Source of the DNA: Acidobacteriota bacterium
Lineage (GTDB): Bacteria > Acidobacteriota > Terriglobia > Acidiferrales > UBA7541
Assembly: GCA_003167215.1 (NCBI GenBank)
Contig: PMTV01000025.1
Location: forward strand, 2,609-66,608
Direction: 5' to 3'
DNA length: 64,000 bases
The notes below the pieces were generated by a model. It ran no database searches and was not told the origin of the DNA. It saw only the letters and a program-made list of their open reading frames with translations. Made by a program: the position numbers and the translations under genes. This document shows positions 7,670 through 16,825 of this stretch, piece by piece; the stretch's first letter is position 1, and each line of letters starts with the position of its first letter.

Positions 7670-7968
7670 GAACGAGTCTCCGACGAGAGCGTCTCAAGAT
7701 TCGCGGCGAAGCGAGGCCCGGGCAAAAATCTCTTGATGTATGTCGCGGAAGAATCCATTCGCTTAGACTTCAGATCAAATTTGAATGCGAAAATTATTCT
7801 GACGAGGAGCGCCAGGCAGCAAAAAGAGTACGCACTCTAGAGCGCCGTTCAGAAGGCACATTCTATCTGCAAAGCCGCGAAAGTCCACAGACAATTGGGA
7901 CCTAGATTTTTCTGTCGATTCTGAAACCTTAGTGAGTGCAGAATCAGAGCCACCATGGTGACGCAAAG

Positions 7969-8850
7969 ATGAGTCCGAAGGACCAAGCCTGGCGCGATTG
8001 GCCGCTCGTGCGGATCGAGAAGGAATATTCTCCAAGCAGTTGTGTGCCCTCCATCGAGCCTTTTTTGACGGAGTACGCGATTCGAAGCCGGAAGGCGGAG
8101 CAATCGCTCGTTTGCCAAAAAGATTTGCGGTGGGGCGACAAGCCTGAAGAAACCTTGGATTATTTTCCAGCTGCTTCGCGCGACGCCCCGCTGCTGGTTT
8201 TTATTCATGGTGGCTATTGGCAGGAGTTGTCGAAGAATGAATCGCTGTTCTCCGCGCCTGATTGTGTGGCGAATGGCATCGCCTTCGCGGCCATCAATTA
8301 CACTTTGGCGCCGCACACCGGCGTGGAGATGATCGTCGATCAATGCCGGCGAGCGGTCGCCTGGCTTCACGCGCAGTCTGACGTGCTCGGCTTCCAGCGT
8401 GACCGCCTGTATCTTTCGGGCAGTTCGGCTGGGGCGCATCTAGGTGCGATGATGTTGGTGAAGGGCTGGCAGCACACGGCCGGCGTGACTGACAATGCGA
8501 TAGCCGGCGCGATTCTGCTGAGCGGAATCTACGATCTCGAACCCTTGGTGGGCACGCGCGTTGCGGCTCCCTTGAATCTAACGGCCACGGATGCCGCTGG
8601 ACTAAGTCCCATGCGCTTGGCCGTGGGCCGGCCGGTGCCGACGATTGTCGCTTGGGGCGAAAATGAGACGAGCGAGTTTAAGCGCCAGAGCAGGAGTTAC
8701 GCCGCGCGGCTGGAAGGTGCGGACTTTCCGGTTTCGGTATTGGAAGTTGCCGGGGCAAACCACTTCGATATTGTTTTTGGTTTGGCCGACCGCGCGAGCG
8801 CTTTAGGGCGTGCGACGCTGGAGTTGATCGGTAGCTCGGCGAAAAAATGA
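7969..8850 (+). CDS. Kynurenine formamidase, alpha/beta-hydrolase type
   Basis: About 293 residues from the ATG at 7969; an upstream GTG at 7936 is possible but weaker. Motifs FIHGGYWQELSKNE (oxyanion-hole HGG-W) and YLSGSSAGAHLGAM (nucleophile elbow, catalytic Ser) mark the alpha/beta-hydrolase arylformamidases related to the eukaryotic enzyme. GANHFDIVFG near the end supplies the catalytic His. The call as formylkynurenine hydrolase rests on the fold and on its position, converging with kynU (stops 6 bp apart) beside all other genes of the pathway. The common bacterial metal-dependent KynB is a different fold, and no such gene is visible here. Without the context one would say generic carboxylesterase. 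Confidence 0.8.
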   Translation: MSPKDQAWRDWPLVRIEKEYSPSSCVPSIEPFLTEYAIRSRKAEQSLVCQKDLRWGDKPEETLDYFPAASRDAPLLVFIHGGYWQELSKNESLFSAPDCVANGIAFAAINYTLAPHTGVEMIVDQCRRAVAWLHAQSDVLGFQRDRLYLSGSSAGAHLGAMMLVKGWQHTAGVTDNAIAGAILLSGIYDLEPLVGTRVAAPLNLTATDAAGLSPMRLAVGRPVPTIVAWGENETSEFKRQSRSYAARLEGADFPVSVLEVAGANHFDIVFGLADRASALGRATLELIGSSAKK

Positions 8851-8856
8851 AGCGAG

Positions 8857-10134
8857 CTAGCGGTGTATCGCAGCCAGGAATTTTTCCGCGAATGCGTGGA
8901 CATCTAAAAACGTGTTGTAAAGCGGCACGGGGGCAACGCGCATAATGTCTGGCTCGCGCCAATCGCAAATGATCCCGTCCTTCGCCAGAGCATCGCAAAT
9001 TGCGCGGCCATTTGCGTTTACGCGCAGAGAAAGTTGCGCTCCGCGGTGTGCGCTAGCGCGCGGTGTGATGATGGAAAACCTCTTCGAAGGCTTCTGGTCC
9101 AGCAAAAACTCCAAGTAGCCTGTGAGCGTCTCACTTTTTGCGCGCAGGCGTTCCATTTTCGCTTCATCGAAAATATCCACAGAGGCACGCAATGCCGCCG
9201 CCGACAGAATGGATGGATTGCTGAGTTGCCAACCCTCGGCTCCCGAAATGGCGTGAAAATCCGGCTGCATGCGGAAACGGTTTTCCTTGTCGTGGCCCCA
9301 CCAGCCCGCGAAGCGCGGCAATTTGGGATCACGGGCATGGCGCTCGTGCACGAAGCAGCCGGCGATGCCGCCCGGACCGCTGTTGAGGTATTTGTAGCTG
9401 CACCAGACCGCGAAATCAACGTTCCAGTCGTGTAACTTCAAGGGCACATTTCCGGCGGCGTGTGCCATGTCAAAGCCAACTATGCAGCCCTTCGCGTGCC
9501 CGGCATCGGTGATGCGCGAAAAATCAAAAGCCTGTCCTGTGTAGTAATTCACGCCGCCAATCATAACCAGCGCGATCTTTTCTCCTTCCGCAGCGATCCG
9601 TTTTTCGATGTCTTCCGTGCGAATCCAGGTTTCGCCCGGGCGCGGGGCTATTTCAATCAACGAATCTGCCGGCTCGTAGCCGTGATATTGAATTTGCGAT
9701 TTCACGGCGTACTGGTCGGAGGGAAACGCGTTGGCTTCGATGAGTATTTTGTTTCGTTGCGGGGTTGGGCGGTAAAACGAAACCATCATGAGGTGCAGGT
9801 TCACGGTGAGCGAATTCATTACAACCACTTCGGTGGGAAGAGCGCCGACTAAACGGGAAACAGGATCGGTCAGAATCTCGTGGTAGGGCACCCATGGGTT
9901 GCGCGCGTGAAGATGCGCATCCACGCCGAGCCGCGCCCACTCTTGCAGTTCCCGCTCGACGAATTCGCGCGTGGATTTCGGCTGCAACCCGAGAGAGTGG
10001 CCGCAAAGATAAACGCAGTCGGAGCCGTCCGGCTTTTTAGGGATGTGAAAGCGTTCGCGGAAGCTTGCGAAAGGATCGCAAGCGGCTTGCTCCGCGGCGA
10101 AATCCTTCGTCGAACTGAACTCAGTGGCAGGCAC
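8857..10134 (-). CDS. kynU: Kynureninase
   Basis: A PLP enzyme cleaving 3-hydroxykynurenine (or kynurenine) to 3-hydroxyanthranilate (or anthranilate) and alanine. 425 residues, usual length. VYLCGHSLGLQPKSTREFVERE is the N-terminal family block; GFDMAHAAGNVPLKLHDW and AVWCSYKYLNSGPGG contain the PLP-binding Asp and the Schiff-base Lys. The GTG start abuts the TAA of kmo with no gap, so translational coupling is likely. It is the last gene of the minus-strand tryptophan operon. Confidence 0.95.
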   Translation of the reverse strand: MPATEFSSTKDFAAEQAACDPFASFRERFHIPKKPDGSDCVYLCGHSLGLQPKSTREFVERELQEWARLGVDAHLHARNPWVPYHEILTDPVSRLVGALPTEVVVMNSLTVNLHLMMVSFYRPTPQRNKILIEANAFPSDQYAVKSQIQYHGYEPADSLIEIAPRPGETWIRTEDIEKRIAAEGEKIALVMIGGVNYYTGQAFDFSRITDAGHAKGCIVGFDMAHAAGNVPLKLHDWNVDFAVWCSYKYLNSGPGGIAGCFVHERHARDPKLPRFAGWWGHDKENRFRMQPDFHAISGAEGWQLSNPSILSAAALRASVDIFDEAKMERLRAKSETLTGYLEFLLDQKPSKRFSIITPRASAHRGAQLSLRVNANGRAICDALAKDGIICDWREPDIMRVAPVPLYNTFLDVHAFAEKFLAAIHR

Positions 10135-11499
10135 TTATAGTTGCTCCAATGGCCTTAGCTGATGGTGGATCATCGATTCCGCTTTTCCCCAGTCAAGATC
10201 CTCAATGCGATCGATCGAGCCGCACAATTCCGCCAGCATAGCATCTTGGACGAGTCCTCTAGAAAGAGCCAAAGAATAAGCAATGCGGTGGAATGTGACC
10301 ATCGCATATTTCGGCACGAAGAGTTGCGGGTATTTGGCTTCGAGAGCCAGTTCTACTTTTTTCTTGAAGAGGAAACGGGGATCGCCCACGCGGTCGCGCA
10401 TCTCGACAAAATTTTCGAGCGCCAGATCCGCGATGGCATCGGTATTGTCCTTGCGCGCGCGCTCAAACTCCGGAAAAACTTTCGGCCAGTCCGCGCCGTG
10501 ACGATCGAGAAGCTCCAGCAAAACCGTGCAGTCCTCAAATGCGCAATTCATGCCTTGCCCGAAGAAGGGAACGATGGCGTGGGCGGCGTCACCGATCAAG
10601 AGAGATTTTGCGTCCACATGCCATGGCGAGCATTTGATCGTGACCATCGAGCCGGTCGGGTTGTCGCGAAAATTGTCGCTAAGCTGAGGCATCAACGGTA
10701 CTGCGTCGGGGAAATTTGCCTGAAAAAATTTCAAGAACTTCGCTTCGGAATCGAGGCTGCCAAAACTCACTTCGTCTTCAACGGGCAGGAACAGAATGCA
10801 GGCAAAAGTGCCGTCAACATTGGGCAGTGCGATCAGCATGTGCGAGCCGCGCGGCCAGATGTGCAGCGCGTTCGTTTCAAGCACATGCTTGGCATTCGGT
10901 CCCGCCGCGATGGTCAGCTCCTTGTAGCCGTAATCGAGAAACTGCTGCGAAAGCGTGAACCCGCCAATCTTCAGCATGGCCACCCGAATTGCAGAAGATG
11001 CGCCGTCCGCGGCGATGACGGTGCTGGATTCGACCGAGGATTCGCGGCCGGGCTCTTCATTGCGGAAGCGCGCGGCTCCGGAATGCAAATCGAATCCCAG
11101 GCAGCGTTCGTTGAAATGAATATTGACGCCTCGCTTTTCAGCTTCATTCACCAGCGCGGCGTTCAAATCCGCGCGCGAAATCGAATTGATGACTTCGGTT
11201 TCATCCTTGCCGTAAGGCTGAAACGTGAGCGCGCCAGAGAGCGAGTGCATCATGCGGCCTTTCATGGGAATGATGATGTGGCGCATGGACTCCCACAGGC
11301 CGGCTTCCCGGAGCGCGTGAATTCCACGCACGGAAATGGCGAGATTGATCGAACGCCCAGCCGACAACTGCACGCGGCGCATGTCCGGGCGCCGCTCGTA
11401 AATCGCCACACGGAAACCGCGTTGAACGAGGGAAATCGCCAGCAGCGGACCGGTGAGGCCGGCGCCGACGAGCGTGATCGTGTCGGACGGGCTTGGCAT
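10135..11499 (-). CDS. kmo: Kynurenine 3-monooxygenase
   Basis: An FAD-dependent hydroxylase making 3-hydroxykynurenine with NADPH and oxygen. 454 residues. The N-terminus has the ADP-binding motif TLVGAGLTGPLLAISLVQRG; the family-typical YERRPDMR and GRSINLAIS blocks follow, and LLIGDAAHAIVPFFGQGMN is the second FAD motif. The C-terminal region has hydrophobic stretches but no evident anchor. It starts 42 bp after the ACMSD-TDO gene and runs directly into kynU. The assignment separates it from generic p-hydroxybenzoate-type hydroxylases through the RSINLAIS motif and the context. Confidence 0.93.
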   Translation of the reverse strand: MPSPSDTITLVGAGLTGPLLAISLVQRGFRVAIYERRPDMRRVQLSAGRSINLAISVRGIHALREAGLWESMRHIIIPMKGRMMHSLSGALTFQPYGKDETEVINSISRADLNAALVNEAEKRGVNIHFNERCLGFDLHSGAARFRNEEPGRESSVESSTVIAADGASSAIRVAMLKIGGFTLSQQFLDYGYKELTIAAGPNAKHVLETNALHIWPRGSHMLIALPNVDGTFACILFLPVEDEVSFGSLDSEAKFLKFFQANFPDAVPLMPQLSDNFRDNPTGSMVTIKCSPWHVDAKSLLIGDAAHAIVPFFGQGMNCAFEDCTVLLELLDRHGADWPKVFPEFERARKDNTDAIADLALENFVEMRDRVGDPRFLFKKKVELALEAKYPQLFVPKYAMVTFHRIAYSLALSRGLVQDAMLAELCGSIDRIEDLDWGKAESMIHHQLRPLEQL

Positions 11500-11541: not shown

Positions 11542-13491
11542 TTAATCTTCCAGCAGCGACCGCGCTTCCCACAACTCCGGGAAGAATTTTTTCTCCAATG
11601 TGAGTTTCAGATACGAGGAGCCGGTGCTTCCGCCGGTACCCATGCGCACACCAATTGTGCGCTCGACCATTTGAATGTGACGCAGCCGCCAGCTCACAAC
11701 GAGCTCGTCGAATTCCGTCAAGCGCTCGCAGACATCAATCCAATCGCGGTGATTACGCTCGTCCTGGTACAACGCTTGAACGGCTTTCGCGCGAGAATCG
11801 AACCGCTCGCGGTCGGTGGCGTTGGCGCTCATCTCCGGAAGCTTTCCCAACGATTTCAGAGCCTGAAAGAAAACGTCGTGAAGCGAATCTTCGCTCAGAC
11901 GGCGGTGAAGAATGGCATGCGTTTCGGGCGTCAGTTGGTGGTAACGCAGCATCTTTTCGTCTTTCAAACCGCACAGGAATTCGATCTCTCGAAATTGCTC
12001 GGACTGAAAACCACTCGCCGGATTCAGTTTGCCGCGAAAAGCGAGAAAGTGAGAAGGCAGCATGGTTTCGAGAATGGTGAACTGCTCCACCAGTACGCGC
12101 ATGATTTCGGTGCAGCGGCGAAGCAAACGCGCGGCTTCGTAAACACCATCGCGAGAAGCAGGATCAGCGCCCGCGGCGCGAAGGTTGGCAACCACGGCGT
12201 CGAGATCGTGCAGCAACTCCTTGAACCAGAGCTCGTAAGTTTGATGAATGATAATGAACAGCAGTTCATCGTGATGCGGAGGGGAAGAGACTGGGTGATG
12301 CAGCGCCAACAGTTCCGGGATGCGAAGATAGGAGCTATAGGTCAATCGACTTTCGGACTCATTCGATTCGACGCTGGAAGGGAAGCCTCGCTCGTCTTTC
12401 GAAGACGTGCTGCTTCCAAATGGGCAGCCGGACGAAGTTTCTGCCTCCAGCACGTCTGATCGCGCCGGTGAAGCCGATGCGTTCGTGACCGCACTTGCAC
12501 TGGGCAAATTCAGAAATTTAACGGCGTTGCCTCCGAGCAACTTCGCTTTCACTTCCGGCGATGAACGGCTTTCGCGAATGAGCGTGCCGGCGCGCACTTC
12601 GCCCAGCGGAAAAGGATAATCGGACCCCAGAAGCACGCGATCTGTTCCCATTACCTCGACGAGAAATTGTAAAGTGCGCTGCTCGAAGACTGCGGAGTCG
12701 ACGCGAATGCGATCCAGATAATGGCTGGGAGCAAACTGTGAGACTCCCCGCGCGACTTCGTGATTTTTCCACGCGTTTTCCAGACGGCCCAGCAGAAACG
12801 CAAAACTTCCGCCGCCGTGCGCGAAACAGATTCGCAGGCTGGGCGGCAAACGGTCGAAAGCTCCGCTTAAAATCATGGATACGAGCGACAACTGCGTTTC
12901 GGCCGGCATGGCCACGGTCCAGGGCATCATGTAATTCGGCATGCGGTCGCCGGCCATCATGTCCCAGGGATGAACGAAGATCGCGGCTCCTTCCGCGTCG
13001 CAATGCTGCAAGAATTTAACGATGCCGGGATCGTCGAGGTTTTTTTGTCCGACGTGATTGCCGATCTGGACGCCCAGGTGTCCGTCGCGCATGCAGCGGG
13101 TAAGCTCCTTGCAGGCTGCATCGACATCCTGCAAGGGAACCTGGCAGAAAGATTTCAGCCTGCCTTTCCCGCGCTGGCACATTTCAAGGGCAACGTCATT
13201 GAACAAGCGCGCGCAATCGAGCGCGTGTTTGGCTTCGCGAGCATAAGCAAAGAGCACTGGCGTGGCGGAGATGATTTGCATGTCCACGCCGTTGCGGTCC
13301 ATGTTTTCGAGGCGCACGTTCACATCCCAGCAACCGGAAGTGACGTGGCGGAACATGCGATCGCCGAGCATGATGTCCGCTTTGCCCGGCCCCGTGTGTT
13401 TGATCGACGGCCAATCCGGCGTGCCGTAGCGTTTGGCGAGATCGGGCCAGGATTCCGGGAAAAAATGTGTGTGAATATCTATGACTGGCAT
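11542..13491 (-). CDS. nbaD-kynA: Fusion: ACMS decarboxylase + tryptophan 2,3-dioxygenase
   Basis: One uninterrupted 649-residue frame with two enzymes. Residues 1-330 are an amidohydrolase of the 2-amino-3-carboxymuconate-6-semialdehyde decarboxylase family: IDIHTHFFPESW gives metal ligands H7 and H9, IFVHPWDMM gives H174, FAHGGGSFA gives H225 and GSDYPFPLG gives D291. Residues 331-381 are a Ser/Ala/Glu-rich linker. Residues 382-649 are tryptophan 2,3-dioxygenase: FIIIHQTYELWFKELL (active-site H416), RLRHIQMVERTIG (heme ligand H605) and GTGGSTGSSYL. There is no Met codon between residues 281 and 464, so the dioxygenase has no ATG of its own; a GTG at residue 344 has no clear ribosome binding site. 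The protein would catalyse the first and the sixth steps of tryptophan breakdown. An AGGGA site precedes the ATG at 13491. A sequencing frameshift joining two genes cannot be excluded. Confidence 0.9.
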   Translation of the reverse strand: MPVIDIHTHFFPESWPDLAKRYGTPDWPSIKHTGPGKADIMLGDRMFRHVTSGCWDVNVRLENMDRNGVDMQIISATPVLFAYAREAKHALDCARLFNDVALEMCQRGKGRLKSFCQVPLQDVDAACKELTRCMRDGHLGVQIGNHVGQKNLDDPGIVKFLQHCDAEGAAIFVHPWDMMAGDRMPNYMMPWTVAMPAETQLSLVSMILSGAFDRLPPSLRICFAHGGGSFAFLLGRLENAWKNHEVARGVSQFAPSHYLDRIRVDSAVFEQRTLQFLVEVMGTDRVLLGSDYPFPLGEVRAGTLIRESRSSPEVKAKLLGGNAVKFLNLPSASAVTNASASPARSDVLEAETSSGCPFGSSTSSKDERGFPSSVESNESESRLTYSSYLRIPELLALHHPVSSPPHHDELLFIIIHQTYELWFKELLHDLDAVVANLRAAGADPASRDGVYEAARLLRRCTEIMRVLVEQFTILETMLPSHFLAFRGKLNPASGFQSEQFREIEFLCGLKDEKMLRYHQLTPETHAILHRRLSEDSLHDVFFQALKSLGKLPEMSANATDRERFDSRAKAVQALYQDERNHRDWIDVCERLTEFDELVVSWRLRHIQMVERTIGVRMGTGGSTGSSYLKLTLEKKFFPELWEARSLLED

Positions 13492-13506: not shown

Positions 13507-14501
<995 letters not shown>

Positions 14502-14538
14502 TCCAGACCACCTCGGTTTGATGTCCGCGAGATTCCCG

Positions 14539-16005
14539 TCACAACTTGACACAAATATTGTTCAGTTCGGAATAAAAATTTAACGAGTGCAGGCCGCCTT
14601 CTCGTCCAATCCCCGACAGGCCCGCGCCTCCGAACGGCGTGCGCAGATCGCGCAGAAACCAGCAGTTGATCCAGGTGATGCCGACGCGCAATTTTTCCGC
14701 GATGCGATGTCCTCGTTTCAGATTCGTGGTCCACACGGAAGCGGCCAGGCCATATTTTGTGTCGTTTGCCATCGCAATAGCTTCTTCTTCAGTATCGAAA
14801 GGCGCGATGTGGCACACCGGCCCGAAAATTTCCTCCTTCACGCAGCGCGCGGATTCGGAAAGGCTGGTGAAAATGGTTGGCTGGATGTAGAAACCGTTGT
14901 CACGAGCGTCGCCAAATTTCGGCGTCCCACCGCCCGTTACGACCGTAGCCCCTTCCTTTTTCGCGAGTTCATAGTAAGAAAGCACTTTTGCACGGTGTTC
15001 TTTTGAAATCAGCGGACCTGTGGTCGTTTTGCTATCGGCGGGCCAACCCAGCGACAAGCCTTCAGCTTTTTGCTTCAGCGCCGAAACAAAACGACCGAAG
15101 ATTGAGCGTTCCACGTAAACACGCTCGGCGCAGAGGCAGACTTGTCCGGTATTGAGAAAAACAGCATCGGCGAGGCCGTTGACCGTTTCATCGAACTCAC
15201 AATCGGCAAAAACTATCGCGGCATTTTTGCCGCCTAGCTCGAATGAGATGGGCTTCACCGTGGGCGCAACAGCGCGCATGATTGCCGATCCTGTTTTCGA
15301 TTCGCCCGTAAATGTGATCGCATTCACGTCCGGGTGGCTGGTAAGGAATTCACCTGCCGAGCCGGAGCCGAAACCGTGAACCACGTTGAACACTCCAGGC
15401 GGCACGCCCGCCGATTGCATCACTTCTGCAAGTAGCGTCGCCGTTGCCGGAGTTTCTTCCGACGGTTTTACCACCACGCAATTGCCACAGGCCAGCGCCG
15501 GCGCAGCTTTCCATGTGAGCAGCAGCAGCGGCAAATTCCATGGAGTAATAATGCCGACCACTCCGAGCGCTTTGCGTACGCAATAATTGAGCGCCGAGGC
15601 GCCGTCAGAAGTTTCCGTCCGAAATGCTTCAATCCCCGCATTTTTAATCAGGTCCGCGAAGACGCGGAAATTCGCAGCGCCGCGCGGAACGTCAATCTTC
15701 GAGGCCAGCGCAACTGGTTTGCCCGTGTCTGCGACTTCGGCTTGAACGAAATCGTTGAAGCGTGCTTCGATGCCGTCGGCGATTTTGTGCAAAAGTGCAG
15801 CGCGGCTGGGAACGGGCAGCTTGCCCCAATTTCCGTTCAGCGCATTGCGTGCGGATTCGACCGCCTGGTTCACCAGCGATTCATCAGCTTCCGAAACTTC
15901 GGCGATCGTCGAGCCGTCCGCTGGATTGATATCGGCAAACTCGCGTGGGCCGCGTACGAAACGGCCGTTGATGTAGTTTTGGAAAAGCTTAGGGCCCGAT
16001 GTCAC
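14539..16005 (-). CDS. nbaE: 2-Aminomuconate 6-semialdehyde dehydrogenase
   Basis: An NAD-dependent aldehyde dehydrogenase, 488 residues, oxidising 2-aminomuconate semialdehyde to 2-aminomuconate. [18 protein letters not shown] includes the general-base Glu and [15 protein letters not shown] the catalytic Cys. The N-terminus [12 protein letters not shown] and C-terminus [13 protein letters not shown] match the hydroxymuconic/aminomuconic semialdehyde subfamily. The start is a GTG at 16005 with GGAGA five bases upstream; the ATG at 16009 is out of frame. It is the first gene of the operon, with a candidate promoter about 45 bp upstream. The context separates it from the 2-hydroxymuconate enzyme. 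Confidence 0.9.
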
Positions 16006-16120: not shown

Positions 16121-16825
16121 TCAAACACGGAGACCAAATCGAGCTAGCATTTCGCGTCGTCCAAAACTTGTCACCCCAACGGCTCTGCTATCGAGATCCT
16201 GCGTCAGCCATTTCTTTTTCAGCGCGACTTTCAGAAGAGCTGCCCCCAGCGCGCCGCCGACATGAGGCCGCCGCTCACTCCAATCCAAGCAGGCGCAGGC
16301 GAACCGGCGGCGCAGCGTACGGGTGGCCTCAAGATCAATTCCCAGAGCCTCGAGCGCCTTCGTTCCAGCGGAGGTGAGGTCATATGCGTTGTCGCCGCGT
16401 TTCGAACTGGCTGAAAGCCAGCCCAGCGCTTTGAAGCGGTCGTGCAGCGACACGCCCACTGCGCCGGCCAGATGATCGTAGCAGGTCCGCGCGGCACGCA
16501 GCCGGCTTGGTGTGCTCGGCACGAACTTATCGCGCGATCCGCCGGCGAGAACAGTTAATCCTTCCAGCGCGCTGCCCACGTCGGGTCCTGTGAGACTGTA
16601 GAAGCGATGCTTTCCCTGGACGAGCACTTTCACCAGGTGCGCTGTCTTCAGCCGGTGCAGGTGCACGCTCGCGGTTGACGCACTCACTTCAGCCACCACC
16701 GAAAGCTCGGTGCTTGTTCGTGCATGGCCATCCATCAGGCAGAAAAGTATGCGCGCGCGCGCCGGCTCGCCGATGGCCGCTGCGATTCTGGAAACTCCAA
16801 CTTCGGCGTATTCTCTGACATCCAT
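16121..16825 (-). CDS. ArsR-family transcriptional regulator
   Basis: 234 residues. A winged helix-turn-helix fills the first 95 residues: [16 protein letters not shown], then the recognition region [19 protein letters not shown], then the wing HRFYSLTG. The roughly 140-residue C-terminal part is longer than in small metal-sensing ArsR proteins, as in the YdfF-like transcriptional regulators; it has several Cys but no obvious metal site. It lies 115 bp upstream of the tryptophan operon on the same strand and divergent from the NIPSNAP gene. It may regulate either, but no operator was identified. Confidence 0.8.

Follow-up and report, generated by a model that had tools for sequence, protein, structure and literature searches.

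Introduction

Tryptophan 2,3-dioxygenase (TDO) and ACMS decarboxylase (ACMSD) act in the breakdown of tryptophan via the kynurenine pathway, as its first and sixth enzymes, five steps apart. TDO is a tetramer, and in the Xanthomonas campestris enzyme (XcTDO) an N-terminal segment (Tyr24, Tyr27 and Leu28) contributes to the active site of the neighbouring subunit. For ACMSD the monomer is inactive, the dimer is active and higher oligomers are more active still (PMC10143591, PMC11650718). Arg239, supplied by the neighbouring subunit and hence written R239*, is essential together with R51 for the decarboxylation of ACMS (PMC11650718). Quinolinate forms from ACMS non-enzymatically, and a 2023 review calls the steadiness of quinolinate despite this enzyme-free formation perplexing and proposes enzyme complexes (PMC10143591).

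Here we describe a gene in which ACMSD and TDO are joined, located in a 64,000-nucleotide stretch of acidobacterial DNA (the window). No description of an ACMSD–TDO fusion was found in the open-access papers searched, and the fusion appears to be a new, previously undescribed arrangement of two known enzymes.

Results

The fusion gene lies on the minus strand, where an uninterrupted frame of 649 codons extends from an ATG at 13491 to a stop at 11542 (Table 1). A complete ACMSD is followed by a 54-residue linker and a complete TDO, and Pfam places Amidohydro_2 at residues 4–329 of the 649-aa product and Trp_dioxygenase from residue 377 onwards. The initial annotation of this DNA had likewise read two complete enzymes in one 649-codon frame, which the open frame, the Pfam matches and the relatives bear out; the strand can now be added. 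Both domains thus share one open frame that is conserved among species and lacks a separate start, the properties expected of a gene fusion. A second copy of ACMSD or TDO was not found in the genome of the window at E ≤ 1e-3. With a probability of roughly 0.7, we take the gene to encode one bifunctional ACMSD–linker–TDO polypeptide with both enzymes active, within a complete tryptophan catabolic operon.

Table 1. Coordinates of the fusion gene, its parts and the neighbouring genes in the window
Feature	Coordinates	Strand	Basis
ACMSD–TDO fusion gene, 649 aa	11542..13491	minus	single ORF; Pfam; same fusion in relatives
ACMSD domain, residues 1–328	12508..13491	minus	P. fluorescens ACMSD 2hbv (phmmer, E 5e-110)
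Linker, residues 329–382, fast evolving, serine-rich	12346..12507	minus	alignment of fused relatives
TDO domain, residues 383–649	11545..12345	minus	X. campestris TDO 2nw7 (phmmer, E 3e-53)
3-Hydroxyanthranilate 3,4-dioxygenase (HAO)	13507..14052	minus	PF06052; NF009763 above cut-off
RidA-family protein, by fold and position a probable 2-aminomuconate deaminase	14052..14552	minus	PF01042; conserved position
2-Aminomuconate/2-hydroxymuconate semialdehyde dehydrogenase (AMSDH)	14539..16005	minus	TIGR03216 above cut-off
Kynurenine 3-monooxygenase (KMO), assigned from its FAD monooxygenase fold and its place in the operon	10135..11499	minus	PF01494; no equivalog model at cut-off
Kynureninase (KYNU)	8857..10134	minus	TIGR01814 above cut-off
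Divergent alpha/beta hydrolase, candidate kynurenine formamidase (putative function)	7936..8850	plus	PF20434/PF07859; in nearest relatives
ArsR-type regulator upstream of operon, candidate regulator	16121..16825	minus	PF01022

Conservation was assessed in an alignment of 27 distinct fused proteins, one per species-level genome; further fused genomes exist outside this set. In the ACMSD half, the metal-binding set of the family (HxH, H and D; here the zinc ligands H7, H9, H174 and D291) and the catalytic H225 are invariant in all 27 proteins, as are W191 and the substrate arginines R48 and R236, the counterparts of R51 and R239*. The TDO half is equally well preserved. Its heme ligand H605, the distal H416, F412, the substrate arginine R486, S493, the GTGG loop (G618-T619-G620-G621) and the N-terminal residues Y385, Y388 and L389 do not vary among the 27 sequences. 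All seven residues named in the initial annotation (H7, H9, H174, H225, D291, H416 and H605) were therein correctly placed. Against Pfam PF03301 the TDO half scores 191.8 bits, far above the gathering score of 34.9 bits. Against NCBIfam TIGR03036 it reaches 235.8 bits over residues 381–646, nearly the full model and below the equivalog cut-off of 390.7; by these scores it is assigned to the broader TDO family and not filed in the narrow TIGR03036 subgroup. Judged by their residues, both enzymes are likely active.

The gene is embedded in a kynurenine operon on the minus strand, with the tightly spaced order AMSDH, RidA, HAO, ACMSD=TDO, KMO and KYNU. Together with the divergent hydrolase, and counting KMO, the formamidase and the deaminase by their inferred roles, the predicted products cover the full route from tryptophan via ACMS to 2-aminomuconate, i.e. 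catabolism. Among the few other loci examined that far, an ArsR-type regulator also adjoins the operon in L059. The pairing of ACMSD and TDO had been called unexpected, which is fair; the background is ordinary, since both belong to one pathway in one operon.

The same fusion was found in species-level genomes of Acidobacteriota assigned to Sulfotelmatobacter, Acidobacteriaceae and Bryobacterales, and in other MAGs. In a 399-genome sample of the class, 12 genomes carry a close TDO; 11 of these have it fused, in frames of 618–679 aa, and in the twelfth (G019) a contig end truncates the TDO to a fragment. The gene order AMSDH-RidA-HAO-ACMSD=TDO-KMO-KYNU is common to every fused locus as far as the contigs reach, three loci (L055, L058 and L099) being cut by contig ends. 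Most of these genomes are MAGs and one fused relative (L056:5929-7816) carries a frameshift within its ACMSD part, both of which could be taken as signs of an assembly or frameshift artefact. That frameshift lies outside the linker, however, and independent assemblies from different projects agree, including G270, a single 5.65-Mb contig at 100% completeness with the fusion within the same operon. Its occurrence in many independent genomes, this one among them, therefore excludes an assembly artefact in practice, and we assign that explanation a negligible probability. The fusion is real, and it has been conserved in at least 27 species-level genomes of soil Acidobacteriota.

The fusion was observed only in Acidobacteriota, in a non-exhaustive scan of other phyla, and no plasmid record covers 80% of it. 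Within the genus of the window 6 of 20 genomes have it, a patchy distribution consistent with acquisition by transfer or with repeated loss. Long TDO frames in four further genomes (G680, G688, G618 and G701) were considered as other TDO fusions and rejected, as they hold no second Pfam domain and are merely open upstream frames. A distant TDO-like family of ~250–340 aa, 29–42% identical over parts, is widespread in the family to which the window belongs (loci L117–L140).

The linker was considered as a place where the TDO could obtain a start of its own. The ~50-residue Ser/Ala/Glu-rich segment proposed earlier is confirmed at 54 residues, of which 16 are Ser and 6 each are Ala and Glu, and the translation indeed holds no Met from residue 281 to 464. 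The linker of the window contains no ATG, one TTG (residue 329) and one GTG, which is located at residue 347 rather than at 344 as first reported. Across the 27 fused proteins the linker measures 11–55 residues (median 28), and its indels preserve the reading frame. No stop occurs in the 827 linker codons of these 27 species-level genomes. At that base composition P is ~2e-11 on the assumption of independent codons, an assumption that does not hold for related genomes. In eight close pairs, dN/dS is 0.03–0.07 for ACMSD and 0.02–0.04 for TDO, indicative of strong purifying selection on both domains. For the linker, seven of the pairs give 0.24–0.87, and the eighth, a very close pair that differs by few changes, gives 3.25. 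The low values in both domains and high values in the linker imply that the enzymes are kept while the tether drifts, the frame across it being kept as well. Its poor conservation fits a mere tether.

A long frame need not correspond to one functional protein if the TDO is produced separately, by an internal start or by cleavage. The window offers GTG347 and a TTG at codon L383 as possible starts, and a GCP motif with a cysteine, confined to linkers from the genus of the window, is compatible with cleavage; the linker could be cleaved post-translationally. Still, 12 of the 27 linkers contain none of the codons ATG, GTG and TTG, nor is any start conserved among the fused proteins. GTG347 is not preceded by an obvious Shine-Dalgarno sequence. 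Codon L383 is TTG in 5 of 27 proteins and mostly CTC, a TTG share no higher than among all leucines. Separate production of the TDO is accordingly rated as quite improbable, and the TDO probably does not start independently of the fusion. Relatives that are always encoded as two genes, with a TDO read from the GTG, had been named as the outcome that would refute the fusion; the relatives are instead fused and conserve neither that GTG nor any other start. By eye, a 10-bp inverted repeat (AGACGTGCTG / CAGCACGTCT) was noticed in the linker coding sequence at 12403–12457. It was considered as a palindromic or mobile element and rejected, as the region is single-copy in the genome and the linkers of relatives are different.

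The origin of the fusion was addressed via unfused relatives. The nearest standalone TDOs are 67–77% identical to the fused TDO domain; their operons pair TDO with a kynureninase and come from another acidobacterial family, from Nitrospira and from a deltaproteobacterial MAG. TDOs this similar in Nitrospira and other groups suggest transfer between phyla. A simple loss of a stop codon between neighbours in place was rejected: ACMSD and TDO were not seen as unfused neighbours in any locus examined, and the closest TDOs that stand alone belong to another operon. Because they lie there next to a distant kynureninase, the TDO was probably brought in and not joined in place. A quick TDO tree nests standalone TDOs inside the fused ones, whereas a careful tree sets the fused rows apart on one side of a weakly supported branch (59/80); the ACMSD tree is compatible with a single origin. 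The simplest account would be that a standalone-type TDO was attached once to the end of ACMSD. Later release of the standalone TDOs from the fusion (fission) is a possible alternative on these trees.

A further observation concerns NAD metabolism. The genome of the window gave no match to NadA (quinolinate synthase). Ten of the 12 fused genomes have no NadA, compared to 46 of 387 genomes of the class without the fusion (Fisher p 7e-8); within the own genus the enzyme is missing in 6 of 6 fused and 2 of 14 unfused genomes (p 7e-4), both of the latter being incomplete MAGs. Neither p-value takes account of common descent or of gaps in MAGs, and this comparison was selected once the first result was known. 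As the fused genomes mostly lack NadA, the operon may be tied to a rewired NAD metabolism. Two genomes (G270 and G339) carry the fusion and NadA together. For NadB, the window's genome and several other fused genomes show no match above a ubiquitous one of ~275 bits, probably succinate dehydrogenase; G282 and G381 have a stronger match. NadC is retained in G002, G010 and the NadA-less fused genus g51; there is no match in the window's genome, G012 or G015, and only a weak one in G019.

One explanation of the fusion builds on these patterns: a 1:1 ratio of TDO (entry) and ACMSD (diversion) would keep a constant leak of ACMS to quinolinate where the aspartate route has been lost. The enrichment of NadA absence in fused genomes, class-wide and in the own genus, agrees with this explanation, as do the retention of NadC in NadA-less fused genomes and the non-enzymatic formation of quinolinate from ACMS (PMC10143591), and tryptophan may serve some of the fused bacteria as a source of NAD. 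However, the genomes without a NadC match, among them that of the window, and the two with both fusion and NadA do not follow the pattern. Moreover, several unfused NadA-less genomes also carry TDO, so that the NadA link may be to the pathway and not to the fusion. The window's genome encodes a nicotinate phosphoribosyltransferase-type protein (NAPRTase), hence nicotinate salvage is more likely there; its organism probably salvages NAD and uses the operon only to break down tryptophan. Overall, we regard supply of NAD as an unlikely reason for the fusion.

Discussion

Why ACMSD and TDO are joined can be approached from the assembly of either enzyme. Substrate channelling between the two active sites was rejected; it is unlikely because ACMSD and TDO share no intermediate. 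Our preferred mechanism is a scaffold. Both halves are expected to be obligate oligomers whose active sites take in residues of an adjoining subunit (Arg239* in ACMSD; Tyr24, Tyr27 and Leu28 in TDO), so four ACMSD chains would be gathered on each TDO tetramer and their local concentration raised. Chains held in this way would be pushed into the active dimer or tetramer state even at low concentration, and the fusion would fix a 1:1 ratio between entry into the pathway and diversion of ACMS away from quinolinate. Among the functional ideas offered in the initial annotation, namely fixed stoichiometry, flux control and a multi-enzyme assembly, that of an assembly is the most specific, on account of the published oligomer dependence of ACMSD. 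As a mechanism on its own the scaffold is put forward tentatively, at odds well short of even.

The main rival is a neutral fusion, in which two genes of the same pathway became joined, the product works, and purifying selection acts on the enzymes and not on the joining. The fast-evolving linker, with its dN/dS mostly at 0.24–0.87 and its variable length, is what such a history would leave behind, and the two enzymes belong to the same pathway and operon. Conversely, fission needs just one stop and one start, and yet no split or adjacent-but-separate version exists among the loci examined. One origin with long persistence is compatible with the tree, and the TDO was probably brought in, its closest standalone relatives occupying a different operon. 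We give neutrality a chance somewhat below one half.

The scaffold could be extended to a control device in which the TDO tetramer sets the oligomeric and active state of ACMSD, physically coupling tryptophan entry and ACMS diversion in bacteria that are mostly without aspartate-route NAD synthesis. This combined proposal is speculative and rather improbable. Still, a natural tie between ACMSD and the entry enzyme of its pathway makes one form of the enzyme-complex idea directly testable, and the fusion offers a tool for ACMSD, an enzyme whose activity depends on its oligomeric state. The finding further draws attention to a group of soil bacteria whose NAD genes are unusual.

Comparison with known systems

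The first half of the fusion matches the ACMSD of Pseudomonas fluorescens (2hbv, EC 4.1.1.45) over its full length (query 2–329; Table 1), and the equivalents of its zinc ligands and of H228, R51, R239* and W194 are all present in the fused proteins. The P. fluorescens enzyme is free-standing, its end being where the linker starts in the fusion, and the equivalent of its R247 is His or Gln in fused proteins. The second half matches XcTDO (2nw7, EC 1.13.11.11), again over the full length, with the equivalents of H55, H240, R117, F51, S124 and T254 and of the N-terminal Y24, Y27 and L28 conserved. The latter segment is the exact point where the linker enters. XcTDO is free-standing, whereas the fused TDO begins inside a longer protein, and Y113 of XcTDO is replaced by Phe in the fused proteins, as in the standalone relatives.

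At the level of gene clusters, the standalone TDO-kynureninase operons (L060–L064, L150–L152) share a closely similar TDO, have no ACMSD nearby and adjoin a kynureninase that is only distantly related (26–31%). Unfused clusters with the same enzymes were found in Flavobacteriales, Planctomycetota and Niveispirillum. AMSDH-RidA-HAO-ACMSD(-KYNU-KMO) clusters (for example Flavobacteriales L077 and L081, Bacteroidetes L091, Niveispirillum L166) hold these enzymes in near-identical order; in contrast to the fused operon, ACMSD is a gene of its own, and TDO lies elsewhere or outside the stretch seen.
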